Notes under the pieces: model-generated
Database searches by the model: none
Told to the model about the DNA's origin: nothing
What the model saw: the letters and a program-made list of their open reading frames with translations, nothing else
In this document: positions 1,332-30,671 of the stretch, in pieces
Numbering within the stretch: the stretch's first letter is position 1
Layout: every line of letters starts with the position of its first letter
Translations under genes and position numbers: made by a program
Origin: Pseudomonadota bacterium
GTDB taxonomy: Bacteria; Pseudomonadota; Gammaproteobacteria; Steroidobacterales; Steroidobacteraceae
DNA length: 36,605 bases
Direction: 5' to 3'
Assembly: GCA_025355245.1 (NCBI GenBank)
Contig: JANXZZ010000274.1
Coordinates: forward strand, 1 to 36,605

Positions 1332-1335
1332 TCGA

Positions 1336-4116
1336 TCAGTTTGCGGGTGGTGGAATCGAGAACGGGTTGTTGTAGTACTGGCCGCCGAGATCGAGCCACT
1401 CGGTCGCAAGCTCGAGCTCCGGCGCGCTCAACCAGCCAGCGTGGGTGCCGCCGGCGGCAAACTCGCTGAAGAACGCCGCAGACGCATTCGCGCCTCCGCC
1501 GCTCATCGGCGGAGTCACTTGCAACGGTACCATCGTCGGCAAGCCGGTCACGGGATCCGGCGGGCCCGGCACAAGGATGGGTTGCATAGTAACAGGGTCG
1601 AGTTTGTCGTGCGGGAACAGCAGCTGACAGAAGGAGGTGAACTCCTCCTGCACGCACGGATTGGTCGCAGCCGGTGTGCTCGAGAGATCGAGCTGGCCCG
1701 CCGGCACCTGGGCCACGTTGGCCGTCGTCGTCGGGGCGTGACAACCGGTGCAAGTCTGATAGGGCTTGGTGGTATTGGGATCGACCGCGGTAATCGAGCT
1801 GCGCGGCGTGACCCAAAGCGAGGCGATGTGCAGCGGGTAATGGACGATCAGGCGGCAGTTCCCCTGCCAATTGGTCTCGCAGTTCGAGCTCACCGGAGCC
1901 GGTGTCGCGAGCAGCGAATTGGGCCAGGAGAACGCCGGATCCGGCGTGCCGACCCCGGTCGGCGTCCAGACGTCGGAGAAGGCGAGGTCGACGTTGGGTA
2001 CCGCGGCGCAGGCGGTGTCGACGCAGGTGACCTGCACGGCCGAGCGGTACTCGGCCATTGTCTCGCCGGCGTTCGGGCCGCGCGGCGCGGGGACGACGGT
2101 GCCCATCCGGTCGGTGACGGTCAGCGCCGTGTTCGGGAACGGCTGGCCAGTCGTCGGCGCGCCGGTATTGACGAGGCTGAACAGCCCGGCGCGACCGTGC
2201 GAGGTCGAGGGGGCCCCATTCACGTTCTGCTGCTCGACGTGGCAGCCGTTGCACGTGACGATTTCGCCGGTGCGCACCTGCAGCCAGGCGCGGTGGCGCG
2301 GGAAAGCGCTGTCGAGGCGGCGCCCGTTGGCATCGAGGATGCTGATCTGGAACGGAATGTCGGTGGGCACGGCGACGCGGACCGAGCCGTCCGGCTCGAT
2401 CGGCGCGTAGCCGATCATCTCGCGCATGAAGTTGCCGGCGGCGCCGAAGGCGTAGTTCGGGAAGGCGTTGTTCGACAGCACTTCCTTGTCCGGCAGGCTG
2501 ACCGCCTTCTCGATGCGGATGAAGCGCGGGCGCAACGGGTTGGCGGCGCGTATGGTCGGGTCGCGGACCGCGGCGATGCCGCCGGGGGCGGTATCGACGC
2601 CGTCGAAGTCGTAGACACTCTTTATATTGAGGATACCGACGCCCTCGGCGGCGAGCGTGAAGCTATAGGTGCCGGTGGTGGTCGGCTGTGCGTCCGGGAT
2701 CGGCGTCGGCACCGGATTGCGGGGCTCGAGCGCGACGGCGTCCGTGTACATGAACCCCGTGGCCGGCACGACGATCGGCAGTTGGGTGTTGTTGCGCGGA
2801 TCGTAGATCCAGATGCTGTAGATCGTCGGCGCCGGCACGACCCCGGCCTTCGCCAGGTTGTCGCTCGTGCACGGGACCGTCAGCGTCTGGTCGATGAGAC
2901 GGCACTGCGTCCAGCTCACGAGCAGCCGGTTTGTGCCGTCCCAGAGCGGATACACGCTCGAGAAGCGGCCGCCCGGCGAGGGCGGCGCGGGAGTGGTCGA
3001 GTTGGCGGGCGCCGGCGTCGTGACGACGTCGTTGACCACGAGCGGCGACTGGCCGGTCGCGCCAGCCGCGACCGTCGCGCCGTGGGCGGTCTGGGTATTG
3101 TCGTCGAAGTTCACCGGGTCGATGAGCACCGGGTCGCCGCCGAACTGCGTGCCCGCGAACGGGATCAGCAGCGCGACGAGCTTGCCGTCCGGGCGCGAGC
3201 GCGCACGCGTGAACTGGACCACCGAGCCCGGCGTGCCGGTGTCGTGGCTGTTGCGGCCGTAGAGCAGCTGCTCGTTGCCGCCGTCCGGCTGGATCGCGTA
3301 CAGGTGCATGCCCGCGTTCGAGTTGATGTCCCAGCGGGTGAACACGATGCGACCGTCATTGAGGACCGCGGGATCGAGGTCGTGGCCGGTGTTGAACGAG
3401 ATCTGCTTGATGTTCGTGCCGTCGGCGTTCATGACGTGCAGGACGAACGCGGGGACGTTGCGATCGCCCTCGATACCGGCCGCGAACTGCTCCTCGCCCT
3501 GGTCGATCAGCACCGCCTTGGCGTCGTGCTGGCGCGTCGAGGAGAATACGATGCGTCCGTCCGGCAGGTAGTGGGCCCCCACGTCGTGGCCGAGACTCGC
3601 CGCGATCGGATCAGCGATGACCTGGCGCAACTTCGAGGTCGTCGTGTCGTACTCGTAGATCGCCCAGTGTGGCTGCTCGTCGGCCTTGGTGTTCTTCATG
3701 AGCGGCGGGCGCAGCGAGAAGATCAGCTTCGTGCCGTCGAAGGACACGTCGAGATCGCGCGCGTCCCAGAGGCCCTTGGTGATCGATCCCGTGATGTTGA
3801 CCTCGGTCGCGCTCGGGCTCGCGGACTGACGCAGGTAGACGTCGGCCGGGCCGTTCCAGACGCGTTGCACGCGCAGGTCGTCGACCAGCGTGATGGCATT
3901 CGGATCGGTCGGGTCCGGCAGCGTCCGCTTGATGTACGCGATCGCGAAGTCCGGTGACACCGGATCGTTCGACCCGCCGCTGTTGCCGAGGCTGATGCCG
4001 CTGTTGCTGCCGCTCACGCCGTCGCTGCTCGAGCATGCGGCGAGCGCGGCCGCCAATGCGCCAACGAGCAGGAGGCGCCAGCAGCGCTTCAGCAGGGTCG
4101 AGATAGTCGTAGTCAT
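1336..4116 (-). CDS. HzsA-related lipoprotein with PD40-like propeller and two CxxCH haem motifs
   Basis: The product is 926 residues from ATG 4116, chosen because GAGGA sits 5 bases upstream and a lipobox (LAAC, Cys28) follows at the right distance; an ATG at 4134 lacks a ribosome site. Residues about 110-330 contain propeller-like repeats (DVSFDGTKLIFS, YLPDGRIVFSSTR, VLNDGRIVFTRWDIN). Two c-type haem motifs follow, CNGCH (Cys622, Cys625, His626) and CTGCH (Cys789, Cys792, His793). This order and the text around NTGHDLDPAVLNDGRIVFTRW recall the hydrazine synthase alpha-subunit family, whose members outside anammox bacteria have no assigned reaction. It is not evidence for hydrazine synthesis, since no beta or gamma subunits are nearby. 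The lipoprotein is probably anchored in the outer membrane. It leads an operon with two barrel genes and diverges from three further exported proteins, two of them haem proteins. Confidence 0.93.
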   Translation of the reverse strand: MTTTISTLLKRCWRLLLVGALAAALAACSSSDGVSGSNSGISLGNSGGSNDPVSPDFAIAYIKRTLPDPTDPNAITLVDDLRVQRVWNGPADVYLRQSASPSATEVNITGSITKGLWDARDLDVSFDGTKLIFSLRPPLMKNTKADEQPHWAIYEYDTTTSKLRQVIADPIAASLGHDVGAHYLPDGRIVFSSTRQHDAKAVLIDQGEEQFAAGIEGDRNVPAFVLHVMNADGTNIKQISFNTGHDLDPAVLNDGRIVFTRWDINSNAGMHLYAIQPDGGNEQLLYGRNSHDTGTPGSVVQFTRARSRPDGKLVALLIPFAGTQFGGDPVLIDPVNFDDNTQTAHGATVAAGATGQSPLVVNDVVTTPAPANSTTPAPPSPGGRFSSVYPLWDGTNRLLVSWTQCRLIDQTLTVPCTSDNLAKAGVVPAPTIYSIWIYDPRNNTQLPIVVPATGFMYTDAVALEPRNPVPTPIPDAQPTTTGTYSFTLAAEGVGILNIKSVYDFDGVDTAPGGIAAVRDPTIRAANPLRPRFIRIEKAVSLPDKEVLSNNAFPNYAFGAAGNFMREMIGYAPIEPDGSVRVAVPTDIPFQISILDANGRRLDSAFPRHRAWLQVRTGEIVTCNGCHVEQQNVNGAPSTSHGRAGLFSLVNTGAPTTGQPFPNTALTVTDRMGTVVPAPRGPNAGETMAEYRSAVQVTCVDTACAAVPNVDLAFSDVWTPTGVGTPDPAFSWPNSLLATPAPVSSNCETNWQGNCRLIVHYPLHIASLWVTPRSSITAVDPNTTKPYQTCTGCHAPTTTANVAQVPAGQLDLSSTPAATNPCVQEEFTSFCQLLFPHDKLDPVTMQPILVPGPPDPVTGLPTMVPLQVTPPMSGGGANASAAFFSEFAAGGTHAGWLSAPELELATEWLDLGGQYYNNPFSIPPPAN

Positions 4117-4369
4117 CGGCGTCCTCGCTTCCATCGCGCCACTCACACCAGCTAGCCGTCGGCTGGCGCGAAAGAAGCGACGGACATGATGTCGTTCACG
4201 CGCACCAGATTCTGTTAACACGCTCACAGGCTTCTCCGCGGGGCGCTGCGTTTTCGCTCCATTTCAAGCATTCGCGCGCACTTAATCAGAGCATTGCTCA
4301 CTTCCAGATTAACCCGCGAGGGCGCTCGTGCGTAATGTCGCCCGGGCGCGACTTGCAGTCCTATTGGGA

Positions 4370-5708: not shown

Positions 5709-8249
5709 ATGAACTCTATTGCCACCCGCAATAACCTTCTGCCGCTTCGCGGGCTGCGCCTGAACGGCAGCTGGCTCGGCGTCCTCGCGGCCTTCGCGGC
5801 GAGCTTCATACTCGTTGGCTGCGGCGCGGGAAGCGCGCCGACGGCGGCGACCCCCGGTGCCGGCGGCGGCCCGACGCAGAGCGCGCAGAGCTACACGGGC
5901 CCGGCGCCCGCGAGCTCCGACGTGCAGGCCTTCGCCGTCAACCTCTGGAACAACGTCAAGACGCAGGACCGCTGCGGAGCGTGCCACATCCAGGGCAACC
6001 AGTCGCCGATGTTCGCGCGTAGCGACGACGTCAACCAGGCCTACACCGCCGCGCAGACGGTCGTCGACCTCGCGCAGCCGGCCAACTCGATCATGGTCAC
6101 GAAGGTCGGCGGCGGCCACCACTGCTGGCTGGCCGACAACTCGGCCTGCGCCGACACGATCACGACCTGGATCAAGAACTGGGCGGGGGTGGCGATCGGC
6201 GCCTCGACCGCGCAGATCCAGCTGGTCGCGCCGACGCTCATGGATGCGGGCGGCTCGCGCTCCTTCCCGGCCGACTCGGCGCTGTTCGCGAGCACCGTGT
6301 ACCCGCTGCTCACGCAGTACTGCTCGCGCTGCCACTCGCCGGCCGCGCTGACCGCGCAGTCGCCGTTCTTCGCACAAGCTGACGTCGACGCGGCCTACGC
6401 GGCGGCACTGCCGAAGATGAACCTCGACACGCCGACCCTGTCGCGCTTCTACCAGCGCCTGGCGTTCGACTTCCACAACTGCTGGGGTGGCGACTGCGTT
6501 GCTTCGTCGGCCGCCATGCTGGCCGCGATCCAGTCCTTCGCGAACCAGGTCCCGGTCACCCAGGTCGACCCAAAGCTGGTGATCTCGAAGGCGCTGACCC
6601 TGTATGACGGCATCGTGTCCTCCGGCGGCACGCGCGTCGAGACGGGCCTGATTGCCAAGTTCGAGTTCAAGACCGGCACCGGCACGGTCGCCTACGACTC
6701 GAGCGGCGTCGAACCCGGGCTCGACCTCAACCTGAGTGGCAACGTCACTTGGGTCGGCGGCTGGGGCGTGCAGGTGGAGAGCGGCGGCAAGCTCCAGGGC
6801 ACGACCATGGGCAGCGCCAAGCTGCACGACATGATCCTCAATAGCGGCGAATTCAGCGTCGAGGCGTGGGTCGCACCGGACAACGTCACGGCCACGAACG
6901 CCTACATCGTCAGCTACTCGGGTGGCGACACCGCGCGCAACATCACGCTCGGCCAGACGATGTACAACTACGACTTCGCGCTGCGCAGCACCACGACCAA
7001 TGCGAACGGTCAGCCGCAGCTCTCGACGCCGAATGCGAACCAGGTCCTGCAGGCGACCCTGCAGCACGTCGTGCTGACCTACGATCCGGTGAACGGTCGC
7101 CAGATCTACGTTAACGGCGGGCTGGTCGCGAGCGGTGACCCGCAGAAGGGGGGCTCGCTCTCCGAGTGGGACAACACCTTCGCGCTCGTCATTGGCAACG
7201 AAGTCTCGGGCACCAAGCCCTGGTCCGGCGTCATCAAGATGGTTGCCTTCTACAACCATGCGATGAGCGCGGCCGACGCGCAGACCAACTTCGCCGCCGG
7301 TATCGGCGAGCGCTACATGCTGCTGTTCAACGTCGACAAGTTCACGGGGCTGTCGCAGTCCTACGTGATGTTCGAGGTGAGCCAGAACGACAGCTACTCG
7401 TACCTCTTCAACAAGCCGGTGTTCCTGAGCCTTGACCCGGCCACGACCTTCAGCAACCTGGTCGTGAAGGGCATGCGCATCGGCGAGAACGGTGCCGAGC
7501 TGGCCGTCGGCCAGGCCTACGCGCCGCTCAACACGACCGTGTCCGGCCAGGGTTTCGACCCGACGAAAGGCCCGCAGACGAGCGTGTCACTGACCCGCAT
7601 CGGCACGGTGATCGAGCTCAACAAAGGACCGGCCTACGACCAGTTCTTCCTGAGCTTCGAGCAGCTGGGTACCGCGACCAACGTGCATACCGACCCGGTG
7701 GGCATTGCGCCGACGCCGGTGGACGTGGCGCGGCCGGCGGACCTCGGCGTGCGTACCTTCGAGCGCATCAACAACTCGCTGGCCATCATGACCACGGTGC
7801 CGGTCACGACACCGGAAGTGCAGACGCTGTTCCAGAGCCTGGAACAGGCGCTGCCGGCAACCACGAATTTCCAGTCCTTCGTGGCCTCGCACCAGATGGC
7901 GGTTGCGCAGCTCTCGATCGCCTACTGCGACTCGCTGGTCAAGAGTCCGTCGCTCTCGGCGGCGTACTTCCCCGGCTTCAGCTTCGCCGCCGCGCCCTCC
8001 GCAGCGTTCGCCAGCACGGCGTCGACCAACCTGATGCTGACGCCGCTGATCGACCACATGCTGAGTGCCAACACGGCCGCGAACAAGTTCCTGGCCACGC
8101 AGCCGACCGCGGCGTCGGTGACGACTGAGGTCAACAACCTCATTACGAAGCTGACGGCGTCCGTGAGCTCGGATGCCGCCGGAACTGCAACTATCGTCAA
8201 GGCGTCGTGCGCAGCGATTGCGGGCAGCTCCGCAATGCTCGTGCAGTGA
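5709..8249 (+). CDS. Large lipoprotein with two CxxCH motifs and a LamG-like domain
   Basis: The protein has 846 residues from ATG 5709, with GGGAG upstream and 13 bases after the previous stop. The N-terminus is a lipoprotein signal with lipobox LVGC (Cys38) followed by a glycine/alanine/proline linker. Two c-type haem motifs lie in the first quarter: CGACH (Cys89, Cys92, His93) and CSRCH (Cys205, Cys208, His209), each followed by text resembling planctomycete-type cytochrome domains. Residues about 313-532 resemble a LamG/concanavalin-like jelly-roll (GLIAKFEF, FSVEAWVAP, HVVLTYDPVNGRQIYVNG, LVIGNE). LamG domains bind carbohydrate or protein ligands. The last 300 residues are unrecognised. 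The combination suggests a surface-anchored haem protein that docks on a ligand. Its partners are the proteins encoded on either side. Confidence 0.9.
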   Translation: MNSIATRNNLLPLRGLRLNGSWLGVLAAFAASFILVGCGAGSAPTAATPGAGGGPTQSAQSYTGPAPASSDVQAFAVNLWNNVKTQDRCGACHIQGNQSPMFARSDDVNQAYTAAQTVVDLAQPANSIMVTKVGGGHHCWLADNSACADTITTWIKNWAGVAIGASTAQIQLVAPTLMDAGGSRSFPADSALFASTVYPLLTQYCSRCHSPAALTAQSPFFAQADVDAAYAAALPKMNLDTPTLSRFYQRLAFDFHNCWGGDCVASSAAMLAAIQSFANQVPVTQVDPKLVISKALTLYDGIVSSGGTRVETGLIAKFEFKTGTGTVAYDSSGVEPGLDLNLSGNVTWVGGWGVQVESGGKLQGTTMGSAKLHDMILNSGEFSVEAWVAPDNVTATNAYIVSYSGGDTARNITLGQTMYNYDFALRSTTTNANGQPQLSTPNANQVLQATLQHVVLTYDPVNGRQIYVNGGLVASGDPQKGGSLSEWDNTFALVIGNEVSGTKPWSGVIKMVAFYNHAMSAADAQTNFAAGIGERYMLLFNVDKFTGLSQSYVMFEVSQNDSYSYLFNKPVFLSLDPATTFSNLVVKGMRIGENGAELAVGQAYAPLNTTVSGQGFDPTKGPQTSVSLTRIGTVIELNKGPAYDQFFLSFEQLGTATNVHTDPVGIAPTPVDVARPADLGVRTFERINNSLAIMTTVPVTTPEVQTLFQSLEQALPATTNFQSFVASHQMAVAQLSIAYCDSLVKSPSLSAAYFPGFSFAAAPSAAFASTASTNLMLTPLIDHMLSANTAANKFLATQPTAASVTTEVNNLITKLTASVSSDAAGTATIVKASCAAIAGSSAMLVQ

Positions 8250-9972: not shown

Positions 9973-11328
9973 ATGGGCAAAGCCGACCTCGCGAGCCTCC
10001 TGCAGTGTCCCCGCTGTCGTCGCGCCGGACTGCGAGCGGGGCCCGAGTGCTTCGAATGCAGCGCGTGCGCCGCGCAGTACCCCTCGCTCGGCGGCATCCC
10101 GTGGCTGTTCGCGGATCCCGAGCGTGCGCTCGGTGACTGGCGCAACCGACTCGGCCAGTACCTCGAGGAGTTCGGCGCCGCCACGCGCGCCGCGGAGGCC
10201 GACCGGGCGCTCACCACCCGATCCTTCACGCGCGAGCGTCTCGACCGGCTGATCGAGGGCTACCGGGAGCAGCAGCGCCTCGTGACGGAACTGCTGGCGC
10301 CGTTGCGCCTCGCTACGACGTCGCTTGGCCAGGCGACGCAGCAGGCCTTCGCGACGCGATTGCCGCTGTCGCAGGACCTGCATTCCTACTACGCCAACGT
10401 GCATCGCGACTGGGTCTGGGGCGACACCGAGAACCAACGGTCGCTTGAGGTCGTGCAACAGGCCTTGGGAGGCGTCCGCGAGCGCGTTCTGGTGCTGGGT
10501 GCGGGGGCCTGCCGACTGGCCTACGACGTGCACCAGGGAGGCGCCGCGCCGCTCACGGTCGCGCTCGACCTCAACCCGTTGCTGCTGCTGACGGCGCGCC
10601 GGGTCGTGGCCGGGGAGACGGTCGAACTCATCGAGTTTCCGCTCGCGCCACGCGGCCTCGCGGACGTCGCGGTGCGCCGCGAGCTGCGCGCGGCGGCGCC
10701 CGCGCGCGCGGGTCTCGAACTCGTGTTCGCGGACGCCTGGCAGGCGCCGTTCAAGCCGCAGAGCTTCGATGCGGTCATCACCCCCTGGCTCATCGACATC
10801 GTCGATCTCGACTTTGCCGCGATCGCCGCACACGTGAATCGACTGCTGGCGCCGGGCGGCCGCTGGGTCAACTTCGGCTCGCTGGCATTCCCCTGGCGCC
10901 GTCCCGGGCTGCGACTCAGCCGCGAGGAGCTGCCGGCGGTGCTGGCCGAGACGGGCTTCGGGCCGCCGACGCTCGAGGAGGTGGAGATCCCCTACATGCG
11001 CTCGCCGGCGAGCCGCCACTCGCGCCTCGAGCAGGTCGTGGTGTTCGGGGCGGACAAGCTGCGCCGCACCCCGCACGAACCCGAGCCACCGAGGCTGCCG
11101 GACTGGATCGACACGCACGACCGGGCCGTGCCGCGGATCCCGGCGCTGGCACTGGCGGCGGACGCGAGCCGCATCCAGGCCGTGCTCCTTGCGCTCGTCG
11201 ACGGGGAGCGCAGCATCGATGAGCTGGTGCGCATCGTCAGCGAGCAGGGACTCCTGCCAGCCGACCAGGCGCGCAGCGCCATCCGCGGACTCCTCGAACG
11301 CTTGTATCTCGCCGGCGAGCGAGTCTGA
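9973..11328 (+). CDS. SAM-dependent methyltransferase with N-terminal zinc ribbon
   Basis: This 451-residue protein begins with a Trm112/zinc-ribbon-like module: cysteine pairs CPRC (12, 15) and CSAC (29, 32), with one more cysteine at 26, then YPSLGGIPWLF. A Rossmann methyltransferase core follows, with motif I VLVLGAGACRLAYDV at about 173-187, acidic motif VALDLNP, then DAWQAPFKPQSFDAVITPWLIDIV and LAPGGRWVNFGSLAF. The phrase WVNFGSL recalls carnosine N-methyltransferase-like (N2227) proteins. The last 60 residues (DGERSIDELV and on) look like a small winged-helix or regulatory tail. The start ATG 9973 has only a weak ribosome site. It is 99 bp from the DUF1501-like gene and separated from the next gene by a spacer with a terminator-like hairpin. 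The substrate is unknown. Confidence 0.88.
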   Translation: MGKADLASLLQCPRCRRAGLRAGPECFECSACAAQYPSLGGIPWLFADPERALGDWRNRLGQYLEEFGAATRAAEADRALTTRSFTRERLDRLIEGYREQQRLVTELLAPLRLATTSLGQATQQAFATRLPLSQDLHSYYANVHRDWVWGDTENQRSLEVVQQALGGVRERVLVLGAGACRLAYDVHQGGAAPLTVALDLNPLLLLTARRVVAGETVELIEFPLAPRGLADVAVRRELRAAAPARAGLELVFADAWQAPFKPQSFDAVITPWLIDIVDLDFAAIAAHVNRLLAPGGRWVNFGSLAFPWRRPGLRLSREELPAVLAETGFGPPTLEEVEIPYMRSPASRHSRLEQVVVFGADKLRRTPHEPEPPRLPDWIDTHDRAVPRIPALALAADASRIQAVLLALVDGERSIDELVRIVSEQGLLPADQARSAIRGLLERLYLAGERV

Positions 11329-11414
11329 ATCGGATCGTGAACTGGATCACGCCGGTGAGGCGTGCGTACGCCGATCTCTGTCGCCATGCAGCGACGAATT
11401 CACTGCGAAAACAG

Positions 11415-11429
11415 CCGTAAAACGGTTTT
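11415..11429 (+). terminator. Possible weak intrinsic terminator after the methyltransferase gene
   Basis: CCGT and ACGG pair around AAA and are followed directly by TTTT. Upstream adenines could extend the pairing into the T-run. The stem is short, so termination is likely to be partial. Confidence 0.35.
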
Positions 11430-11464
11430 GTGAAGCGCCGATCACTCTCAAATGGCCGCGCGCG

Positions 11465-11470
11465 TTGACA
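11465..11470 (+). promoter_or_regulatory. Candidate -35 element ahead of the riboswitch
   Basis: TTGACA is a perfect sigma-70 -35 hexamer. The -10 at a 17-base spacing (11488-11493, GAGCTT) is poor, but a start near 11500 would place the riboswitch at the very 5' end of the transcript, as is usual for such elements. Confidence 0.4.
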
Positions 11471-11504
11471 CTGCGAATCGCGCATGCGAGCTTTACAGAA
11501 TCTG

Positions 11505-11580
11505 CCAAGGCAAACTCGTCGCGAGGCGAGGACGCAAAGCTTCCGGTCCGCGAATTGACGGACAGCGGGGTTGCCGCGGG
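11505..11580 (+). promoter_or_regulatory. Cyclic-di-GMP-I (GEMM-I) riboswitch aptamer
   Basis: The element matches the GEMM-I consensus throughout. The 5' strand reads AAGGCAAAC. A 6-bp stem, 11515-11520 with 11525-11530, is capped by the GNRA tetraloop GCGA. It is followed by the hallmark segment GACGCAAAGCTTCCGGTC (11531-11548), which contains the tetraloop receptor and ligand-contacting bases. A second stem pairs GTCCG (11546-11550) with CGGAC (11559-11563). The 3' strand AGCGGGGTTGCC (11564-11575) pairs back to GGCAA (11509-11513), closing the junction. Known members bind c-di-GMP and control motility, surface and secretion genes. This one should control the TlpA-like gene and the envelope-machine genes behind it. 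Whether the ligand turns expression on or off is not visible. Confidence 0.93.
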
Positions 11581-11607
11581 TGCGTGCTTCCGGATCCGGA
11601 CCACGCA
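11581..11607 (+). promoter_or_regulatory. Strong hairpin after the aptamer, possible expression platform
   Basis: TGCGTG (11581-11586) pairs with CACGCA (11602-11607), and inside it TCCGG pairs with CCGGA, giving about 11 base pairs in one interrupted stem. No T-run follows, so it is not a classical terminator. It could compete with the 3' strand of the aptamer, or shape access to Rho or to the downstream leader. Confidence 0.45.
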
Positions 11608-11679
11608 CGTTGCGATGACCACAGTCGTGCGAGACGCGCGATTTGCGGGCGCTGCCTGGGGCTCGGGTGTCGGGAGTTC

Positions 11680-12237
11680 ATGGCCGCCGTGGTTCAGCGT
11701 CGTTTCACGCTTCGTCGACTCTCGACCTGGGCGCTTGCCCCGTTCGCTATTGCGTTCGTCATGGGCGCACCGGCGCGCGCGGCCGATCGTGCGGCCAGCC
11801 ATCCGCTGATCGGCAAGCCCGCCCCGGAGCTCGTCGAACGAATGTTCACGGGCTCGAGCCGCAATTTTCGCCTTTCGGAGCGGCGCGGCGAAGTCGTCGT
11901 CGTCGGCTTCTGGACGAGCTGGTGCGGGTCGTGCCGTGCGTACCTTGAGCGCCTCGGCAAGCTCAATGCGACCTACGCCAGTGCCGGTCTCGTGGTCGTC
12001 GGCGTGAGCCTCGATGACAAGCCCACCTCTGCGACCGAGCTCGCGCACGCGCTCGGCGTCCGTTTTGGCAACGTATTCGATGCCGAAAAAGTGCTGGGCC
12101 GTCGATTCCAGGTTGGCGATGTACCGCTTACGCTGCTGATCGACCGCAACGGCGTCGTGCGCTACTCGCACGGCGAGCTGGATCCCGCGGGCGATGCTGC
12201 CCTGCTCGCCGAGCTGCGGCGATTGCTTGACGAGTGA
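11680..12237 (+). CDS. TlpA/ResA-like periplasmic thiol-disulphide oxidoreductase
   Basis: The product is 185 residues from ATG 11680, with GGGAG just upstream; the frame is open further back, but that part overlaps the riboswitch. A signal peptide or N-terminal anchor spans about 12-34, with cleavage possible after ARAA. The thioredoxin-fold core has VVVVGFWTSWCGSC with catalytic Cys82 and Cys85, then VVGVSLDD, VGDVPLTLLIDRNGVV containing the cis-proline, and a C-terminal helix. TlpA/ResA proteins reduce periplasmic disulphides, often on apocytochrome CxxCH motifs or on copper-site proteins. Several CxxCH proteins are encoded 2-10 kb upstream. It is the first gene behind the c-di-GMP riboswitch and on the same strand as the envelope-machine genes. 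The specific partner is inferred, not shown. Confidence 0.92.
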   Translation: MAAVVQRRFTLRRLSTWALAPFAIAFVMGAPARAADRAASHPLIGKPAPELVERMFTGSSRNFRLSERRGEVVVVGFWTSWCGSCRAYLERLGKLNATYASAGLVVVGVSLDDKPTSATELAHALGVRFGNVFDAEKVLGRRFQVGDVPLTLLIDRNGVVRYSHGELDPAGDAALLAELRRLLDE

Positions 12238-12253
12238 GCCCACGGAGACATCG

Positions 12254-12397
12254 ATGGATAGCCCGCACATTGCTGTAGCCATACTCGGCACCGGTCACGG
12301 CGTAACCCGCCGCCGGCCGTTGCCGGCGCGCCGCGCAAAGGCGTCGTGGATTGTCCGCTGGCTTGGTTGGATTACCGGCGCGCGAGCGCGCACCTGA
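12254..12397 (+). CDS. Possible 47-residue small protein
   Basis: ATG 12254 is preceded by GGAGA at ideal spacing, 16 bases after the TlpA stop, and the frame ends at TGA 12395-12397. The peptide starts with a mildly hydrophobic stretch (HIAVAILGTG), continues with an arginine/proline-rich middle (RRRPLPARR) and ends with a tryptophan-rich amphipathic segment (WIVRWLGWITG). It fills most of an otherwise empty 177-bp gap in the operon. No family is recognised. It could be a true small membrane-associated protein or a chance frame in a leader. Confidence 0.4.
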   Translation: MDSPHIAVAILGTGHGVTRRRPLPARRAKASWIVRWLGWITGARART

Positions 12398-12414
12398 AGC
12401 AGAAGGTCCCGACG

Positions 12415-13053
12415 ATGGCAATCACCTCAATTCGTGTCCTGCTCGCACGCGCCGCGCTCGGCTGTGCGCTACTGCTCGCCGTCGCGGGCTCCGGCTGGGC
12501 CCAGACACCGGCGGCTCCGGCGGCGGCGTCGGCCGCGTCGGCAGCACCCGTCCCGGCGGGCGCCTCCGCCGACGCCGCGGCAAGCCCGGCCGTGGCGGCG
12601 GGGGACTTCAAAAGCCTCGACGGCGACGTCCAGGGCCTCAAGAGGGAGGTACTCGACCTCAACCGGGACCTGTTCCTGCTCGAGGAAGAACTGCTGTTCC
12701 CGGCCAACACCCAGGTCGCGGTGTTCGTATCGCTCGACGTTGGCACCTTCTTCGAGCTCGACTCCGTGCAGCTCAAGCTCGACAGCAAGGAAGTCGCGAA
12801 CTACCTCTACACCGATCGCGAGGTGGAGGCCCTCAATCGCGGCGGCGTCCATCGTGTGTTCATTGGCAACCTCAAGACCGGCAAGCACGAGCTTGTCGCG
12901 TTTTTCACCGGCAAGGGCCCGCACGAGCGCGACTACAAGCGCGGCGCGAACCTCAACTTCGAGAAGGGAGTCGGCGCGAAGTACCTCGAACTCAAGATCT
13001 CTGACCGGCAGAGCGCGCAGCAGCCCGTATTCACGATCAAGGAGTGGGAGTGA
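12415..13053 (+). CDS. Exported coiled-coil/beta-domain protein of the envelope-machine cluster
   Basis: The protein has 212 residues from ATG 12415, with AGAAGG eight bases upstream. The signal peptide ends at GWA-QT (29/30). Residues 31-63 are an alanine/proline linker. Residues about 64-95 (DGDVQGLKREVLDLNRDL, then EEELLF) have heptad-like spacing and probably form a short coiled coil. The rest appears to be a beta-rich domain (TQVAVFVSLDVG, VHRVFIGNLKTGKHELVAFF, KYLELKISD). I know no named family for it. The neighbouring TPR gene starts at GTG inside its stop codon, so it belongs to the same machine. It may be a periplasmic connector. Confidence 0.88.
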   Translation: MAITSIRVLLARAALGCALLLAVAGSGWAQTPAAPAAASAASAAPVPAGASADAAASPAVAAGDFKSLDGDVQGLKREVLDLNRDLFLLEEELLFPANTQVAVFVSLDVGTFFELDSVQLKLDSKEVANYLYTDREVEALNRGGVHRVFIGNLKTGKHELVAFFTGKGPHERDYKRGANLNFEKGVGAKYLELKISDRQSAQQPVFTIKEWE

Positions 13054-15011
13054 GTCGAGGCGGTCAACGTAGGCCCGAGGTGCGCCGCGTGCGCCGTTCG
13101 CTCGCCTGCCTGCTCGCCCTTGCGTTGCCGCTCGCGGTTGCGACGGCGACCCCGCGCGCGACGCCCACGCCCGGGAGCCTGCCGCCGATCAAGGTACAGG
13201 ACCTCTACTACGGCGACGTTCTTTTCTATTTTTTCCAGGATGACTATTTCGAGGCGCTGACGCGCCTGACGGCGGCGCAGGAGAAGAATCGCCTGCAGCA
13301 TCATGCCGACGACGCGGAATTGCTGCTCGGCGGCCTGTACCTGTCCGTCGGCCAGCACCGCGAGGCCGGCGAGATCTTCGCACGCGTCCTCGATGGCAAG
13401 AACGTGCCGGCCGCGGTGCGCGATCGCGCGCGCTTCTTCCTCGGCAAGGTATGGTACCTGCGCGGCTACCTCGACAAGGCGGCTGAGACACTGGCCGCGG
13501 CCGGCAAGGCCGGACTCTCGCCGGAGATGGAAGCCGAGCGTCGCATGCTGCTCGCGCAGTCCCTGATGTTCGAGGGCAAGTACCCCGAGGCGATCCGGAC
13601 GCTCGAGAACTGGAAGGGTCCGATCACCTGGCAGGCCTACGCCCAGTTCAACCTCGGCGTCGCGCTGGTGCGCAGCGGCAGGCTCGACGAGGGCGTGCGG
13701 TTGCTTGATGCGGTCGGCAAGCTCGACCGCAGCAATCGTGAACTCGACGCGCTGCGCGACAAGGCAAACCTCGCGCTTGGCTTCGCGCTCCTGCAGGCCA
13801 ACAAGCCGCTCGAGGCGCGCCCGATTCTCGAGCGGGTGCGGCTCGACGGACCGCTGTCGACCAAGGCGCTGCTCGGCGTCGGTTGGGCGGACAGCGCCTC
13901 GGAGAAGTACCGCGAAGCACTCGTGCCGTGGACCGAGTTGCACGGCCGCAACCTGCTCGACTCGGCCGTGCAGGAGAGCTATCTCGCCGTCCCGTACGCA
14001 TTCGGCAAGCTCGGCGCCAATCGGCAGGCAGCCGAGGCCTACGAAACCGCGATTCACGAGTTCTCGGCGGAAAACGCGCGGCTCGATGAATCGATCACGG
14101 CGATCCGCAAGGGCGGTCTCATCGAGACCATCGTCAAGAACGAGTCGAAGCACCAGCTCGGCTGGTTCTGGCAGCTCTCGGCGCTCCCGGATGCACCGGA
14201 ATCCCGCTATCTCTTTCACCTTCTGGCGCGCAACGAGTTCCAGGAAGGACTCAAGAACTACCGGATGATGCGCTACATGGAGCGCAATCTCGACGGTTGG
14301 GCGAATAGCGTCGACGCCTTCGATGACATGCTCGCGACACGCAAGCAGCGCTACACGGAAAAGCTGCCGGTCGTACTCGCCAGGCTGCAGGGCGTCGACG
14401 TCGAGGAGCTGCAGCACAGGCGCACGGAATACGAATCGAGCGTCGCGGCCGCGGAGTCGACCGGCGATCGCGCGGCTCTCGGCACGCCGCGCGAGCGCGC
14501 GATCTGGGCGCAGGTCGAGCAGATGGAGGCGGTATTGGCGACGGCGGGCGATGATCCGGACAACAACGAAGCGCGCGAGAAGCTGCGCCTCGTGAAGGGC
14601 GTCATCTACTGGCAGATGAACGACGGCTTCAAGGCGCGCGCCTGGGCGGCGCGCAAGGACCTGCGCGACGTCGCGCAGGCACTGCGCGAAACCGAGAAAC
14701 GCTGGTCGCTCGTGCAGGAAGCGAAGACGGCGGTGCCCGACCGGAACGGTGAGTTCGGCGAGCGCATCGCCGGGCTGCGTCCGCGCATCGGCGCGGCCCG
14801 CGACCGGTTGGCCGCGCTCGAGCGGGCGCAGGCCGATTACCTTGCCGAAATCGCCGTGACCGAGCTCGCCTCCCAGAAGGAGCGCATCTCGACCTACATG
14901 CTGCAGGCACGCTACGCGCTCGCTACAATTTACGATCGCGCTGCCGCCGACCAGCAGAAAGCCCCGCTCGCCGCGCCGCCGCCGGCCGCCGAACCGGACG
15001 CTCCCAAATGA
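13050..15011 (+). CDS. Exported TPR protein, GltE/AglT-like in position
   Basis: No ATG is available at the N-terminus. GTG 13050 is chosen because AAGGAG lies five bases upstream and it overlaps the previous stop as GTGA; GTG 13044 would have no spacing from that site. The 653-residue product has an arginine-rich start and a hydrophobic signal (SLACLLALALPLAVA) ending near residue 33. TPR-like helical repeats fill about 45-330 (for example YDVLFYFFQDDYFEAL-type and AAVRDRARFFLGKVWYLRG). The C-terminal third is strongly helical and charged, with likely coiled coil (about 520-630). Periplasmic TPR proteins of this size accompany TolQR-type motors in the Myxococcus Glt and Nfs machines. A scaffold role is inferred from context. 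Confidence 0.92.
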   Translation: MSRGGQRRPEVRRVRRSLACLLALALPLAVATATPRATPTPGSLPPIKVQDLYYGDVLFYFFQDDYFEALTRLTAAQEKNRLQHHADDAELLLGGLYLSVGQHREAGEIFARVLDGKNVPAAVRDRARFFLGKVWYLRGYLDKAAETLAAAGKAGLSPEMEAERRMLLAQSLMFEGKYPEAIRTLENWKGPITWQAYAQFNLGVALVRSGRLDEGVRLLDAVGKLDRSNRELDALRDKANLALGFALLQANKPLEARPILERVRLDGPLSTKALLGVGWADSASEKYREALVPWTELHGRNLLDSAVQESYLAVPYAFGKLGANRQAAEAYETAIHEFSAENARLDESITAIRKGGLIETIVKNESKHQLGWFWQLSALPDAPESRYLFHLLARNEFQEGLKNYRMMRYMERNLDGWANSVDAFDDMLATRKQRYTEKLPVVLARLQGVDVEELQHRRTEYESSVAAAESTGDRAALGTPRERAIWAQVEQMEAVLATAGDDPDNNEAREKLRLVKGVIYWQMNDGFKARAWAARKDLRDVAQALRETEKRWSLVQEAKTAVPDRNGEFGERIAGLRPRIGAARDRLAALERAQADYLAEIAVTELASQKERISTYMLQARYALATIYDRAAADQQKAPLAAPPPAAEPDAPK

Positions 15012-18000
15012 GCGCTTCGCGGCTGGTCGTCGCGCTGCTCCTGAGCGCCGCGTTCGCGGCGCCGGCCGTCAGCGCCGCCGCCAAGAAGGCGCCGACGATT
15101 GCCGATCTCAGCAGCAAGCAGGTCGAGGTGTACCCGGACGACGCGGTCAGCGGCAGTACCGAGCGCGCCCGCGAGAACTACGCCGCGTTCCTCAACCTCG
15201 AGAAGGGCGACGCGGCGCTGCGTGCCGAGGCGATGCGCCGGCTCGGCGACCTCAAGCTCGACGCCGGGGAAGTCGACCGCATCGAGAAGAACCTGGCCGA
15301 GGGCTCGCCGCTCGACACGACCGACGCCATCCTGCTGTACACGAAGCTCCTCAAGGCCTACCCAAAGTACGAGCGCAACGATTCGGTGCTCTACCAGCTG
15401 GCGCGGGCCTACGAGGCCGACCAGAAGGACGACAAGGCCCTGGCGACGCTCGATGAGCTCGTGCGGCGCTATCCCGCGAGCCAGCATCGGGCGGAGGCGG
15501 ACTTTCGTCGCGGCGAAGTGCTGTTCATGGCGCGCCGCTGGCCGGAGGCGACCGGCGCCTACGCGAGCGTGATCACGATCGGGCCGCGCTCGGAGTTCTA
15601 CGAACAGAGCCTTTACAAGCACGGCTGGGCGCTGTTCAAGCGCGGTGATTCGGAAGGGGCCCTCGATTCTTTCTCCAAGCTCCTCGACCGCCGGCTGCTC
15701 GATGCCAACGGCAAGGAGCGCGACCTCGAAGGTTTCACGCGCCCGCAGCGTGAACTGGTCGAGGACACGCTGCGCGTCTGCGCGATCACCTTCTCCTTTG
15801 ACGAGGATGCCAAGGGCATCGACGCATTCATGAGTCGCCACGGCAGCAAGCCCTACGCGCATCTCCTGTACGCGGGACTCGGCGACCTCTACGTGAGCAA
15901 GGAGCGCTGGACGGATGCGGCGAACGCCTATCGCGCCTTCGCGAAGCGCGAGCCGGACCACGACGTAGCGCCGTTGCTGCAGATGCAGGCGATCGAGGCC
16001 TACAAGCGCGGCGGATTCGCCTCGCTGGTCCTCGATGGCAAGCGCGAGTACGTGCAGCAGTACCGCCTCGGCTCGACGTTCTGGGCCAACCGCAAGCCCG
16101 GCGACGCACCGCTCGTGGTACGCGAGCTCAAGACGAACGTGAAGGACCTCGCGTCCTTCTACCACGCGCAGGCCCAAGGCTCGAAGCTGCCGGCCGACTA
16201 CCAGGAAGCGGCGCGCTGGTATCGCGAATTCCTGCAGTCCTTCCCGGACGATCCGGAGGCCGCGGCCACCAATTACCTGCTCGCCGATACGCTCTTCGAG
16301 AGCCACCAGTATCGCGACGCCGCCGTCGAATACGAGCGCACCGCCTACGCATACCCGCCAAACGCCAAGTCCGCGACGGCGGGTTACGCAGCGCTCGTGG
16401 CGTACGAGAAGGAAGAGGCCGATCTCAAGGCCGAGGCGCGCATGGCCTGGCACCGCCAGGCCCTCGAGAGCGGATTGCGCTTCGCGACCAGCTTCCAGGA
16501 GCACCCCGAAAGCGTACCGGTGCTGGTGCGAACGGCTCGTGAACTCTACGACCTAAAGGACTACGCGAAGGCCGTCGACGTCGCCGATCTCGTGCTCGCC
16601 CGGCGCCCGCCGGTCGACGTCGAGAAGCAGCGCGTCGCCTGGACGGTCATCGCCAACGGCCAGTTCGAACTCGGTCAGTTCGACAAGTCGGAGGGCGCGT
16701 ACCTGCAGGTGCAGACGCTGCTGCCAGCCAATGACCCGCAACGCCCCGCCATCGACGAGCGCGTCGCCGCGTCCGTATACAAGCAGGGCGAGGCGCGCAA
16801 GGCCGCCGGCGACGATGCGGGTGCGGTCGAGGACTTCCTGCGCGTCGCCAAGCTCGCGCCGGGTGCGAAGATTCGCGCGACCGCGGACTACGACGCGGCC
16901 GCGCTCCTGATCGGGCTCAAGGAATGGCCGCGCGCCATCGACGTACTCGAGGGATTCCGCCGCAATTTCCCGACGAGCGAGTTGCAGCCGGAGGTAACGC
17001 GCAAGCTCGCCGCGGCCTACCTCGAAGGCGGGCGGCCCGGCCAGGCGGCCGCCGAGTTCGAACGCATCGCCGTAGCGCCGGGCGGGTCCACGGACCTGCA
17101 GCGCGAAGCGCTCGCGCAGGCCGCGACTCTCTACGAGAAGTCCGGCGACCTCGCCAAGTGCGTCAGCAGCTTGGAGAGTTACGTCAAGCGCTTCCCGGCG
17201 CCGTTCGATGCGGCCATGGAAGCCCGCGAGAAGCTCGCCGAGATCGCCCAGCAGCGGGGCGACGCGCCGCGCCGCTCGGCGCTGCTCGCGGAGATCGTCG
17301 CGGCCGACGGCGTGGCGGGCTCCGCGCGCACCGACCGCAGCCGCTATCTCGCGGCGCGCGCCTCGCTCGAGCTTGCGCAGCCGACGCGCGATGAGTTCAA
17401 CTCGATCCGCCTGACGCTGCCGCTCAAAAAGTCGCTCGAGGCCAAGCGTGCTGCGATGCAGCACGCGATCAAGGCCTACGAGGCGGCCGACCGCTATTCG
17501 GTCGCCGAGGTCTCGACCGCGGCCACCTACGAGATGGCGGAACTCTATCGGCACCTGAGCGAGGATCTCCTCAAGTCCGAGCGGCCGAAAACCCTCAAGG
17601 ACGAGGAGCTCGAGCAGTACAACCTCCTGATCGAGGACCAGGCGGACCCGTTCATCGAGAAGGCGATCGAGATCCACATGGTGAACGCCGTGCGCGCCGC
17701 GCAGGGTGTCTATGATCTCTCCGTTCGAGCGAGCTTCACGGCGCTGAGCAAGCTCAAGCCCGCGCGCTTTGCGAAGCTCGAGGAAAACGAGGACCTGGTC
17801 ATCGACGCGGCCGCGGGCGCTGCGCCCGTCGAGCCGCCCGCAACGCCGGCGACCCCACCGACCGGCAAGCACGCTGCCGCCCCGGTCGCACCACCGCCGG
17901 CACCGCCCGCGGTGCCGCTGCCGATCGCGACGCGCTTCCAGGAGGCGGTCGTCGCCGCGGAGCAGGGCAACAGCGCGCGCGCGATCGCCGAGTTCAGTGC

Positions 18001-18418
18001 GCTTCAGGATGCCGCGCCGACACTCGCGGGCCCCTCGCTCAATCTTGGAATCGTCCAGGCCCGCCAGGGCAACTGGGCGGAGGCCGAGACCGCGCTTGGC
18101 GAGGCCGCGAAGCGCAATCCGGCGAGTGCCATTGCTGCCGCCGAGCTCGGCGCGGTGTACCGCCAGCTCGGACGCTTCCCGGACGCCGAGCACGCCTACG
18201 AGCGGGCGCTGCAACTCGATTCAAATATGCCGAGGACTCACCGGAACTTCGGCGTCCTGCTCGACCTCTATCTGCAGAAGCCGGCGGAAGCACTCCTCCA
18301 GTACGAAAGCTCGCTCGCCCTCGTGGGCGGCGACGACAAGCAAATGTCCGCCTGGATTGCCGAGATCAAGCAGCGCCTCGGGGCCGGCCCCAAGAGCGCC
18401 CGCGCGGAGGCGCAATGA
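15008..18418 (+). CDS. Very large exported TPR protein, GltD/AgnA-like in position
   Basis: This 1136-residue protein starts at ATG 15008, overlapping the previous stop as ATGA. Residues 1-23 form a signal peptide (VALLLSAAFAAPAVSA). TPR-type repeats run through most of the length, including VLYQLARAYEADQKDDKAL, SLYKHGWALFKRGDSEGAL, NLGIVQARQGNWAEAE and AAELGAVYRQLGRFPDAEH. A proline/alanine linker at about 936-973 separates the main superhelix from a last TPR module (about 980-1110). The size, repeat style and location beside a second TPR protein and a TolQRR set resemble GltD of Myxococcus, a periplasmic component of the gliding complex. It likely spans or organises the periplasm as a scaffold. 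Sequence homology to GltD was not tested. Confidence 0.93.
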   Translation: MSASRLVVALLLSAAFAAPAVSAAAKKAPTIADLSSKQVEVYPDDAVSGSTERARENYAAFLNLEKGDAALRAEAMRRLGDLKLDAGEVDRIEKNLAEGSPLDTTDAILLYTKLLKAYPKYERNDSVLYQLARAYEADQKDDKALATLDELVRRYPASQHRAEADFRRGEVLFMARRWPEATGAYASVITIGPRSEFYEQSLYKHGWALFKRGDSEGALDSFSKLLDRRLLDANGKERDLEGFTRPQRELVEDTLRVCAITFSFDEDAKGIDAFMSRHGSKPYAHLLYAGLGDLYVSKERWTDAANAYRAFAKREPDHDVAPLLQMQAIEAYKRGGFASLVLDGKREYVQQYRLGSTFWANRKPGDAPLVVRELKTNVKDLASFYHAQAQGSKLPADYQEAARWYREFLQSFPDDPEAAATNYLLADTLFESHQYRDAAVEYERTAYAYPPNAKSATAGYAALVAYEKEEADLKAEARMAWHRQALESGLRFATSFQEHPESVPVLVRTARELYDLKDYAKAVDVADLVLARRPPVDVEKQRVAWTVIANGQFELGQFDKSEGAYLQVQTLLPANDPQRPAIDERVAASVYKQGEARKAAGDDAGAVEDFLRVAKLAPGAKIRATADYDAAALLIGLKEWPRAIDVLEGFRRNFPTSELQPEVTRKLAAAYLEGGRPGQAAAEFERIAVAPGGSTDLQREALAQAATLYEKSGDLAKCVSSLESYVKRFPAPFDAAMEAREKLAEIAQQRGDAPRRSALLAEIVAADGVAGSARTDRSRYLAARASLELAQPTRDEFNSIRLTLPLKKSLEAKRAAMQHAIKAYEAADRYSVAEVSTAATYEMAELYRHLSEDLLKSERPKTLKDEELEQYNLLIEDQADPFIEKAIEIHMVNAVRAAQGVYDLSVRASFTALSKLKPARFAKLEENEDLVIDAAAGAAPVEPPATPATPPTGKHAAAPVAPPPAPPAVPLPIATRFQEAVVAAEQGNSARAIAEFSALQDAAPTLAGPSLNLGIVQARQGNWAEAETALGEAAKRNPASAIAAAELGAVYRQLGRFPDAEHAYERALQLDSNMPRTHRNFGVLLDLYLQKPAEALLQYESSLALVGGDDKQMSAWIAEIKQRLGAGPKSARAEAQ

Positions 18419-18906
18419 CAGCAGCAGCCCCTCGGGTTCTGATAGCCACCCTGATCCTCTGTGGAGTCGCAACGGCGTACGCGCAGACGACGCCCGCCGC
18501 CGACGACGCACAGGCGCGAGCCCGTGCCCGGGCGGTCCGGGACGCGGAGCCGGCCGTCAAGGAAGCGCCGCCGGCGCGGCCAACGCCGCCGCCGTCCGCG
18601 AAGCGCGCGCCTGCCGCGGCCGCCGACAAGGGGCCCAAGGCGGCCGACCGCCTCGACCTCGACACGACGCAGATCACCGGCAACCGCGAGCTGCCGAAAG
18701 TCATGGTCATCGTGCCCTGGAAGCGGTCGGATATCGGCGATCTGATCGGCCGGCCGGTGAACAGCCTGGTCGACGAGGCCCTGCAGCCGGTCGACCGCGA
18801 GGTCTTCCGCCGCGAGATCGACTATTACGGGGCGTTGACACCCGACCGTCCCCGCAACGAGACGCACGTCACAGGTGCAGCGCCGAAAGAGCTTCCTGAG
18901 AAGTAA
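18415..18906 (+). CDS. Small exported protein of unknown function
   Basis: The product is 163 residues and overlaps the large TPR gene as ATGA. The signal peptide ends near AYA-QT (23/24). Residues about 25-80 are a low-complexity alanine/proline/arginine stretch. A compact conserved-looking block follows (GNRELPKVMVIVPWKRSD, then IGDLIGRPVNSLVDEALQPVDREVFRREIDYYGAL). I know of no characterised function. The link with the TPR and ExbB genes suggests a periplasmic subunit contacting the motor or the TPR scaffold. The polar linker would allow it to reach across the periplasm. Confidence 0.87.
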   Translation: MTAAAPRVLIATLILCGVATAYAQTTPAADDAQARARARAVRDAEPAVKEAPPARPTPPPSAKRAPAAAADKGPKAADRLDLDTTQITGNRELPKVMVIVPWKRSDIGDLIGRPVNSLVDEALQPVDREVFRREIDYYGALTPDRPRNETHVTGAAPKELPEK

Positions 18907-18987: not shown

Positions 18988-19704
18988 ATGAATGCCTACG
19001 ATCAAATTGTCATGTTCTTCAAACAGGGAGGTTTCTTCCTGTATCCGATCGCGCTCATCTGGGCGATCGGTATCGTCATCGCGATTGAACGTTTCGTGTA
19101 CCTGACGCGAGTCGGTACCGGCAATCGACGCCACTGGGAAGAGCTGCAGCCGCTTTTTGAAGCGGGCAACTACAAGCAGGCGATGAACGTCGTCCAGCAG
19201 TCGGGAACTGCACTGGCGCAGGTCATGAAGTACGGTCTCAGCCGTATCCAGACCGCGCGTCGCCGCGACGACATCGAGAAGGCCATGGAGGAAAGCCTGG
19301 TCGAGGTGATTCCCCGCATGGAGCGGCGGACCCACTACCTCGCTGCGCTTGCCAACATCGGCATGCTCATGGGCCTGTTCGGCACGGTGCTTGGACTCAT
19401 CCGGGCCTTCGCCGCGGTCGCTACCGCGAATCCGGCGGAGAAGGCGAGCCTGCTGTCGGCCAGTATCTCGGTCGCCATGAACAACACGGCGCTCGGCCTG
19501 CTGGTCGCGATCACCTTGCTCCTGTCGCACCTGTATCTCGAGACCAAGACGACCAACATCGTCGACAGCCTTGAAGTCGCGAGCATCAAGTTCCTTAACA
19601 CGCTCACCGAGCGTCAGCAGCGCGCGGCGGCTGCCGGCGCGGCGGCGGCGGCCGCGGCACCCGTTGCGCGGTCGAGCGGCGAGGTCCGTGGGGCGCGCGC
19701 ATGA
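18988..19704 (+). CDS. ExbB/TolQ/MotA-family proton-channel protein (AglR-like)
   Basis: The 238-residue protein has GGAG eight bases before ATG 18988. It shows the family layout: a first membrane segment (about 15-36, FFLYPIALIWAIGIVIAIERF), a cytoplasmic helical region (40-120), then two membrane segments (about 128-150, ALANIGMLMGLFGTVLGLIRAF, and about 165-187, VAMNNTALGLLVAITLLL). The GLFGTVLGLI and NNTALGLLVA patterns are signatures of the family. The tail is an alanine-rich extension. With two ExbD/TolR proteins it should form a proton-driven stator-like motor in the inner membrane. The 81-bp gap upstream is the largest in this run and could hold a secondary promoter, though none is convincing. 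Confidence 0.96.
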   Translation: MNAYDQIVMFFKQGGFFLYPIALIWAIGIVIAIERFVYLTRVGTGNRRHWEELQPLFEAGNYKQAMNVVQQSGTALAQVMKYGLSRIQTARRRDDIEKAMEESLVEVIPRMERRTHYLAALANIGMLMGLFGTVLGLIRAFAAVATANPAEKASLLSASISVAMNNTALGLLVAITLLLSHLYLETKTTNIVDSLEVASIKFLNTLTERQQRAAAAGAAAAAAAPVARSSGEVRGARA

Positions 19705-20183
19705 GCGGATCGACGCTAGCGCGTCGCCAGACGCGCAACCATGCGCGTTACAAAGGTCGGAACGACGTCAACATCGTTCCGATGCTCGACATCTTTACGA
19801 TTCTGCTGTTCTTCCTGATCTTCACGGCTGTGTTCTCGCGTACCCACATCGTCGAGCTGAATCTGCCGGCGCAGAGTTCGGAACCCCTCAAGCTGCCCGA
19901 GGGCCTGGTGCTGGAGGTCGTAGTTAGAAAAGGCGGCCTCGAGGTACAGGACAAGAACACCGGCTTCCTCCAGGGGATGCCGGTCACCGAGCAGGGCTAC
20001 GACTTTGACGGGCTCACGGCCTACCTGAGCCGCGTCAAGGCGCGTTACCCGGAGTTGAAGACGGCGACGGTACTGCTCGAGCAGGACATCCCCTACGACA
20101 CGATCGTCGCGACCATGGATGCGGTGCGGTCCTTCGAGGGCACCCTGGACGGCAAGCCGGCACGCGGCGAGCTGTTCCCGTAG
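19701..20183 (+). CDS. ExbD/TolR-family protein 1
   Basis: The 160-residue product overlaps the channel gene as ATGA. A short basic cytoplasmic tail precedes the single membrane helix at about 27-46 (IVPMLDIFTILLFFLIFTAV), whose aspartate at residue 30 is the family's proton-carrying residue. A periplasmic alpha/beta domain follows (about 50-160), with VELNLPA near the membrane and the usual C-terminal DTIVATMDAVR helix. ExbD/TolR proteins pair with ExbB/TolQ and transmit proton flow to periplasmic partners. Having two ExbD paralogues next to one ExbB parallels AglQ/AglS with AglR in Myxococcus. Confidence 0.95.
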   Translation: MSGSTLARRQTRNHARYKGRNDVNIVPMLDIFTILLFFLIFTAVFSRTHIVELNLPAQSSEPLKLPEGLVLEVVVRKGGLEVQDKNTGFLQGMPVTEQGYDFDGLTAYLSRVKARYPELKTATVLLEQDIPYDTIVATMDAVRSFEGTLDGKPARGELFP

Positions 20184-25320: not shown

Positions 25321-25370
25321 GTTCTTTGATTCGCTTTGGCCAGTTCCGAACCACGGACGACTCGACCGCA

Positions 25371-27842: not shown

Positions 27843-27876
27843 CGCGCCTCCGGAGCGCCCGGGCGCCTGCGCCTGC

Positions 27877-27882
27877 TATCAT
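27877..27882 (+). promoter_or_regulatory. Candidate -10 element of ppc
   Basis: TATCAT lies 40 bases before the ppc ATG in the 80-bp gap after eda and is the only good -10 hexamer there. No clear -35 is visible. Confidence 0.3.
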
Positions 27883-27922
27883 TTTGGCCGTGGTCGCGCC
27901 TGTGGGGCGCCTTGCAGGCGCG

Positions 27923-30643: not shown

Positions 30644-30671
30644 GGCACGCCGCCACCGAGGCTCAAGCGCC

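Follow-up and report, generated by a model that had tools for sequence, protein, structure and literature searches.

The window, by which we mean the whole stretch of 36,605 nt analysed here, carries on its forward strand a run of genes in the order tlpA-X2-TPR-TPR-X5-exbB-exbD-exbD-tonB, and ahead of the first of these lies a cyclic-di-GMP-I (GEMM-I) aptamer. The features on which the following account draws are these:

1-4227, reverse strand: possible accessory module (HZS_alpha/PD40 protein, SH3+barrel protein, OMP_myx_plus-like barrel), cut by the window's end
11465-11470, forward strand: TTGACA, possible -35 box of a leader promoter, recurring in the leaders of relatives
11500-11581, forward strand: c-di-GMP-I (GEMM-I) aptamer with P1, P2 and P3, from the RF01051 and RF03167 scores and standard helix pairs
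11580-11608, forward strand: hairpin right behind the aptamer, without a T run, from the sequence and minimum-energy folds
11654-11684, forward strand: hairpin pairing the Shine-Dalgarno-like GGGAG (11672-11676), from the consensus fold of 8 genus leaders
11680-12237, forward strand: tlpA-like thiol-disulfide protein gene (Pfam AhpC-TSA 7.7e-18, Redoxin 7.6e-16)
12415-13053, forward strand: X2, exported protein without known family, previously unannotated, the marker gene of the cluster
13044-15011, forward strand: TPR protein, GltC-like by place (weak TPR matches; start codon uncertain)
15008-18418, forward strand: TPR protein, GltD-GltE fusion-like (TPR matches)
18415-18906, forward strand: X5, exported-looking protein of 163 aa, at nearly the same place in relatives
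18988-19704, forward strand: exbB-like (AglR-like) motor gene (MotA_ExbB 1.1e-25)
19701-20183, forward strand: exbD-like gene 1, AglQ/S-like (ExbD 9.4e-16)
20207-20722, forward strand: exbD-like gene 2, AglQ/S-like (ExbD 4.9e-13)
20745-21656, forward strand: tonB-like gene with an AgmX/PglI C-terminal domain, GltG-like (NF033768 68.3 bits, cut-off 40)

A scan of the entire window (cmscan, Rfam 15) returned a sole match, at 11500-11579 on the forward strand, to RF03167 (62.7 bits against a cut-off of 59, E 1.1e-12). The first-pass annotation had named RF01051 instead and had proposed an Infernal check with that family, which came out positive, with 62.7 bits at 11499-11578 against a cut-off of 35. 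Every segment by which it had recognised a GEMM-I RNA was found again on the forward strand in the region it had given, namely GGCAAAC at 11509-11515, the GCGA tetraloop at 11521-11524, GACGCAAAGCTTCCGGTC at 11531-11548 and AGCGGGGTTGCC at 11564-11575; the extent it had proposed, 11505-11580, is slightly short, as P1 pairs 11500-11505 with 11576-11581. All pairs of the helices are standard (6/6 in P1, 8/8 in P2 and 12/12 in P3), and across 28 aligned aptamers of the order, the window's own and 27 from its genome and relatives, 9 of the 22 predicted pairs are kept with changes on both sides. The residues described as contacting c-di-GMP in Vc2 are G20, A47 and C92 (PMC4744006; similar in PMC3764141), and the window has this canonical set at 11509, 11536 and 11575 respectively, the placement of C92 resting on our own alignment to Vc2 numbering; none of the 28 aligned aptamers departs from G20 or A47. 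The RNA match is far beyond chance and the aptamer is real, a further member of an already known riboswitch class, and its identity as c-di-GMP-I is upheld by both the covariance model and the ligand-contact residues.

The list of downstream genes given previously (TlpA, TPR, ExbB, ExbD and TonB) is right but incomplete, in that it omits the genes at 12415-13053 and 18415-18906 and the second ExbD; the reading of these genes as those of a trans-envelope machine also stands, and a closer name is possible, as in domain content and order the run resembles the Agl-Glt core complex. The exbB and two exbD motor genes stand together, all with Pfam matches above the cut-off. X2 has no match in Pfam or NCBIfam, and its AlphaFold2 model, a helix with beta strands (pLDDT 79), has no match in the PDB at E <= 0.001; X5 has no Pfam match. 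One MotA/ExbB, two ExbD, an AgmX/PglI TonB-like protein and TPR proteins, all in one run, are shared with the Agl-Glt (Luciano et al. 2011, PMC3169522) and Agl-Nfs (Wartel et al. 2013, PMC3858216) systems of Myxococcus, the Group B core of Agl-Glt being given as aglR, Q and S with gltC, D, E and G and one extra gene in one region (PMC3169522). The window differs from Myxococcus Agl-Glt in that its equivalog scores are far under the cut-offs, the tonB-like gene reaching 44.5 bits for GltG (cut-off 650) and the tail of the second TPR protein 39.3 bits for GltE (cut-off 225). In 25 of 45 loci the final 200 residues are encoded in a different frame or beyond a stop codon, which together with the sub-threshold GltE match of this tail suggests that the second TPR protein is a GltD-GltE fusion. 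We know of no gliding in the group of bacteria to which the window belongs. The stand-alone Agl-Glt core complex has been called of unknown function in Gammaproteobacteria (PMC3169522), and Wartel et al. suggested that the core complex may be a basal transport machine, the Agl-Nfs version of Myxococcus moving a surface polymer (PMC3858216).

Within the order GEMM-I aptamers are found in 47 of 60 genomes, the window's own included, and a model trained on the 28 aligned aptamers was run over the cluster regions of relatives. There are 41 type-1 clusters in relatives, of which 39 can be judged, those of G019 (L066) and G004 (L083) having too little upstream DNA, and the window itself stands outside the count. 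The aptamer lies 0.6-1.2 kb upstream of X2 in 16 of the 39 (weakly in two, with 37.2 bits in G005 and 33.6 bits in G012) and some 7 kb upstream, where it leads a longer run, in three (G045, G058 and G059); in the remaining 20 none was found in the upstream DNA, at least 1.5 kb each, and no cluster of a relative has one on the strand opposite the operon. For this tally L082 was taken as type 1 by its other genes (TonB 58%), against the scripted split at 50% X2 identity, L090-L097 are outside it as they have no X2 match, L090 being counted as a sister by its TonB gene, and a partial TonB match in G024 (C1:1830438) was left out. Among the best 80 of 419 confirmed named loci, 70 of which span at least 1.5 kb upstream, the aptamer is within 1.2 kb upstream of X2 in 20 and at about 7 kb in one, and all 21 aptamer matches in these 80 loci (1.21 Mb) are upstream and on the operon strand, one of them weak (L181, 28.9 bits); this set shares organisms with the 39 clusters and the two are not independent. 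By simple arithmetic (3 aptamers in 4.04 Mb) the chance of an aptamer in a given 1.5-kb stretch of one strand is ~0.0006. The placement is common to relatives from several families, and the named relatives among the loci include Steroidobacter and Woeseiaceae. Tandem GEMM-I aptamers ~240 nt apart were seen in G059 and G046 (L004 1501-1832, L005 1501-1827). Two aptamers also stand upstream of the cluster of G046.

How such an aptamer might act on the operon can be considered from the leader. A promoter would lie just upstream of the aptamer: TTGACA is found 34-37 nt 5' of the aptamer in 17 of 29 leaders (L154, among the 29, has too little upstream DNA to judge), and no consensus -10 at normal spacing from it was found in the window. 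In the G003 leader (L101 5841-6300), judged by eye, a promoter-like stretch is kept and the aptamer has decayed. The start of tlpA, ~100 nt past the aptamer, is probably ATG 11680 or GTG 11689, of which only the GTG is kept across the genus. The hairpin at 11580-11608 is not kept in the genus alignment, and that at 11654-11684 has 0-3 broken pairs in the 8 leaders, with one pair changed on both sides and little covariation. The window leader holds no intrinsic terminator, which rules this out as the output; a script found terminator candidates in 9 of 29 tlpA leaders, and by eye only that of L116 has a compact stem directly before the T run. Because no intrinsic terminator is present, we would place the output at the translation start or at Rho-dependent termination, such that c-di-GMP would close P1 and closure of P1 would change one or the other at tlpA. 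A model in which the aptamer releases the Shine-Dalgarno sequence was also rejected, as in 7 of the 8 genus leaders the change in its exposure when the aptamer is imposed is within one SD of shuffled controls, and exceeds this in only one. The conserved GTG is less exposed with the aptamer imposed in 7 of the 8, as would be expected of an OFF switch; this is a raw count with no null for the GTG, and we therefore do not lean on it for the sign of control, an ON and an OFF switch appearing to us equally probable.

Taken together, it is likely that a functional c-di-GMP-I aptamer sits in the 5' leader of a tlpA-tonB operon that is predicted to encode a proton-driven, envelope-spanning complex of the Agl-Glt type. 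What is observed here is the fold of the aptamer, its contact residues and its placement, which recurs in relatives of several families. The genes from tlpA to tonB would form one transcript, although co-transcription of tlpA and X2 is not given, since 178 nt separate them, and the machine would serve the surface-attached state, a role suggested by the GEMM-I aptamers that precede pilus-assembly genes elsewhere in this genome and large surface-protein-like genes in relatives.

The RF03167 label that cmscan prints would make this RNA a c-di-GMP-I-GGC variant, sensing a different ligand. The name of that family, read together with its consensus, appears to list positions 20, 47 and 92, and its consensus at position 47 is G where the window RNA has A. 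Furthermore, a scan of 20 loci with 22 aptamers gave the label to 7 of them, the window's own included, and the 6 others, all of the order, likewise have A47, so that it does not track the residue; the A at 47 and the labelling of these other A47 RNAs make the label misleading, and with RF01051 scoring exactly as well we reject GGC as the identity of the RNA and hold the variant reading to be very improbable. The cGAMP (c-AMP-GMP) riboswitches of Geobacter are GEMM-I variants of the same fold family, and G20A is the change that has been used to turn a GEMM-I aptamer toward cGAMP binding (PMC6274999); the window has G, not A, at this position (11509), so a cGAMP reading is unlikely and was set aside. 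With RF01051 the RNA shares model score, P1-P2-P3 fold, GNRA tetraloop, the three contact residues and placement in a leader, and it differs in the Agl-Glt core-like operon downstream and in a leader without an intrinsic terminator. It is accordingly filed under c-di-GMP-I, with c-di-GMP as its predicted ligand.

The aptamer could also be a relic that is decaying in the genus, with its regulation lost. It is lost in G003, weak in G005, changed in core residues in G012 and altered from C92 to U in G011, and the window copy has the lowest score of the three GEMM-I aptamers in its genome; against this, the pairs of P1, P2 and P3 and the three contact residues are intact in the window, and in the 28 aptamers of the order pairs are kept through two-sided changes, so that we regard a relic as quite unlikely. 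The aptamer of G012 (L105 6057-6136, 33.6 bits) has G at 47 and C at 48 and thus a damaged or altered pocket. The other alternative is that the switch controls only tlpA, that is a redox protein, and that the machine genes have their own promoter. The 178-nt gap between tlpA and X2 speaks for this, and it holds a strong hairpin without a T run (by eye), but the later genes overlap or nearly touch, tlpA precedes X2 in relatives irrespective of whether an aptamer is present, in G045, G058 and G059 the longer aptamer-led run includes tlpA, and no sigma-70-like site was found in 11300-12450. Control of tlpA alone would therefore seem unlikely, and a c-di-GMP-responsive leader for the operon as a whole is what we retain.

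Counts of signalling genes agree with c-di-GMP as the ligand, with genome size and kinship confounded in the trend. The window's genome has 23 GGDEF matches; among the 60 genomes GEMM-I is missing in 13, and the five that are free of GGDEF are all without GEMM-I. In the genus GGDEF matches number 14-26 in the 8 relatives that have GEMM-I and 5-7 in the 6 that lack it, yet G029 and G049, with 15 and 20 matches, have no GEMM-I.

In Gammaproteobacteria as a whole the cluster is common, X2 being found in 58 of 274 genomes of the class, own genome included (E <= 1e-8). Sixty of 69 X2 places outside the order were taken, the 9 weakest being left out, and none of these 60 cluster loci (50 genomes, 1.07 Mb) has an aptamer by a model built within the order; some weak matches go missing in searches that span more than 40 genomes. 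GEMM-I occurs elsewhere in 11 of the 50 genomes (RF01051, 17 places), and none of the 17 shares a contig with a cluster examined. A class-wide fixed link between aptamer and cluster is ruled out by the 0/60, and as no aptamer was found in the upstream DNA of 20/39 clusters within the order or at 60/60 loci outside it, it is better seen as a clade-specific input than as a fixed feature of the machine.

Seven loci of relatives (L084-L090) hold a diverged sister type of the cluster with an X2 of ~40% identity, L090 lacking the X2 gene. In all 7 an aptamer lies between tonB and the longest downstream open frame, 37-70 nt before that frame, which runs for 1255-1695 codons to the end of the retrieved DNA in six and for 122 codons to the contig end in L090. 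The L085 protein, the one that was scanned, contains DUF11 repeats together with an isopeptide-forming fimbrial domain, and by eye the remaining ones are alike, with two kinds of N-terminus. These arrangements allow a wider, tentative suggestion, which we think doubtful as a whole: the stand-alone core may be a proton-driven machine that exports or moves a surface adhesin or polymer when the cell is attached, with c-di-GMP riboswitches wired to the machine and, in the sister version, to the giant repeat-rich surface protein encoded immediately after it, the machine's presumed cargo.

The remaining GEMM-I sites of the window's genome, which has 3 in all, are also of note. The second aptamer (L097 8399-16074) heads pilM, pilN, pilP and secretin genes, behind which a Big_1 protein is encoded, and a GEMM-I aptamer, there of the cGAMP type, likewise heads pilM in G. 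metallireducens (PMC9262584). The strongest of the three (L096 9096-10388) heads a 354-aa protein that belongs to no known family and matches SPOR below threshold. A further GEMM-I aptamer, in G012 (L095 418-498), stands directly 5' of a 967-aa protein with repeats that by eye look Ig-like.

In the open-licence literature, searched by title and the start of the abstract, no link between the aptamer and this orphan machine was found, whilst tables in GEMM papers may list such genes, and no open-licence paper was found in which a c-di-GMP riboswitch comes together with ExbD. The nearest related report is work on Bdellovibrio in which cGAMP affects gliding, and in its accessible text riboswitches are named only for Geobacter (PMC9140294). 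The cluster is common in Gammaproteobacteria and is likened to a core of unknown function, and a c-di-GMP aptamer hints at when the machine is used; its position at the head of the cluster in one order indicates which signal to vary and which cell state to examine. Work in culture on this question looks feasible, because two strain-named records, Steroidobacter agaridevorans SA29-B (L162) and Peristeroidobacter agariperforans KA5-B (L177), have the same arrangement.

Finally, further parts of the machine may be encoded elsewhere in the window. The longer aptamer-led run of G045, G058 and G059 opens with HZS_alpha/PD40, a 173-aa protein, SH3+barrel and an OMP_myx_plus barrel and continues with TlpA, DUF3570 and X2, and homologues of its first, third and fourth genes lie at the left end of the window, 1-4227 on the reverse strand (34, 40 and 38% identity to the G045 proteins by tblastn), here apart from the operon and inverted. 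The HZS-like gene of the window has a Pfam HZS_alpha match of 2.3e-13, and matches to the HZS-like protein are found outside the order at 25 of 60 loci and within it at 7 of 55 fetched loci. The proteins of this accessory module could belong to the outer part of the machine. Between the module and the riboswitch, at 5709-8249 on the forward strand, lies a gene for a large Laminin_G_3 (concanavalin-like) protein, and the region 25326-32042 holds ordinary central metabolism, with an Edd-type dehydratase, KDPG aldolase and PEP carboxylase on the forward strand and a serine dehydratase on the reverse strand.
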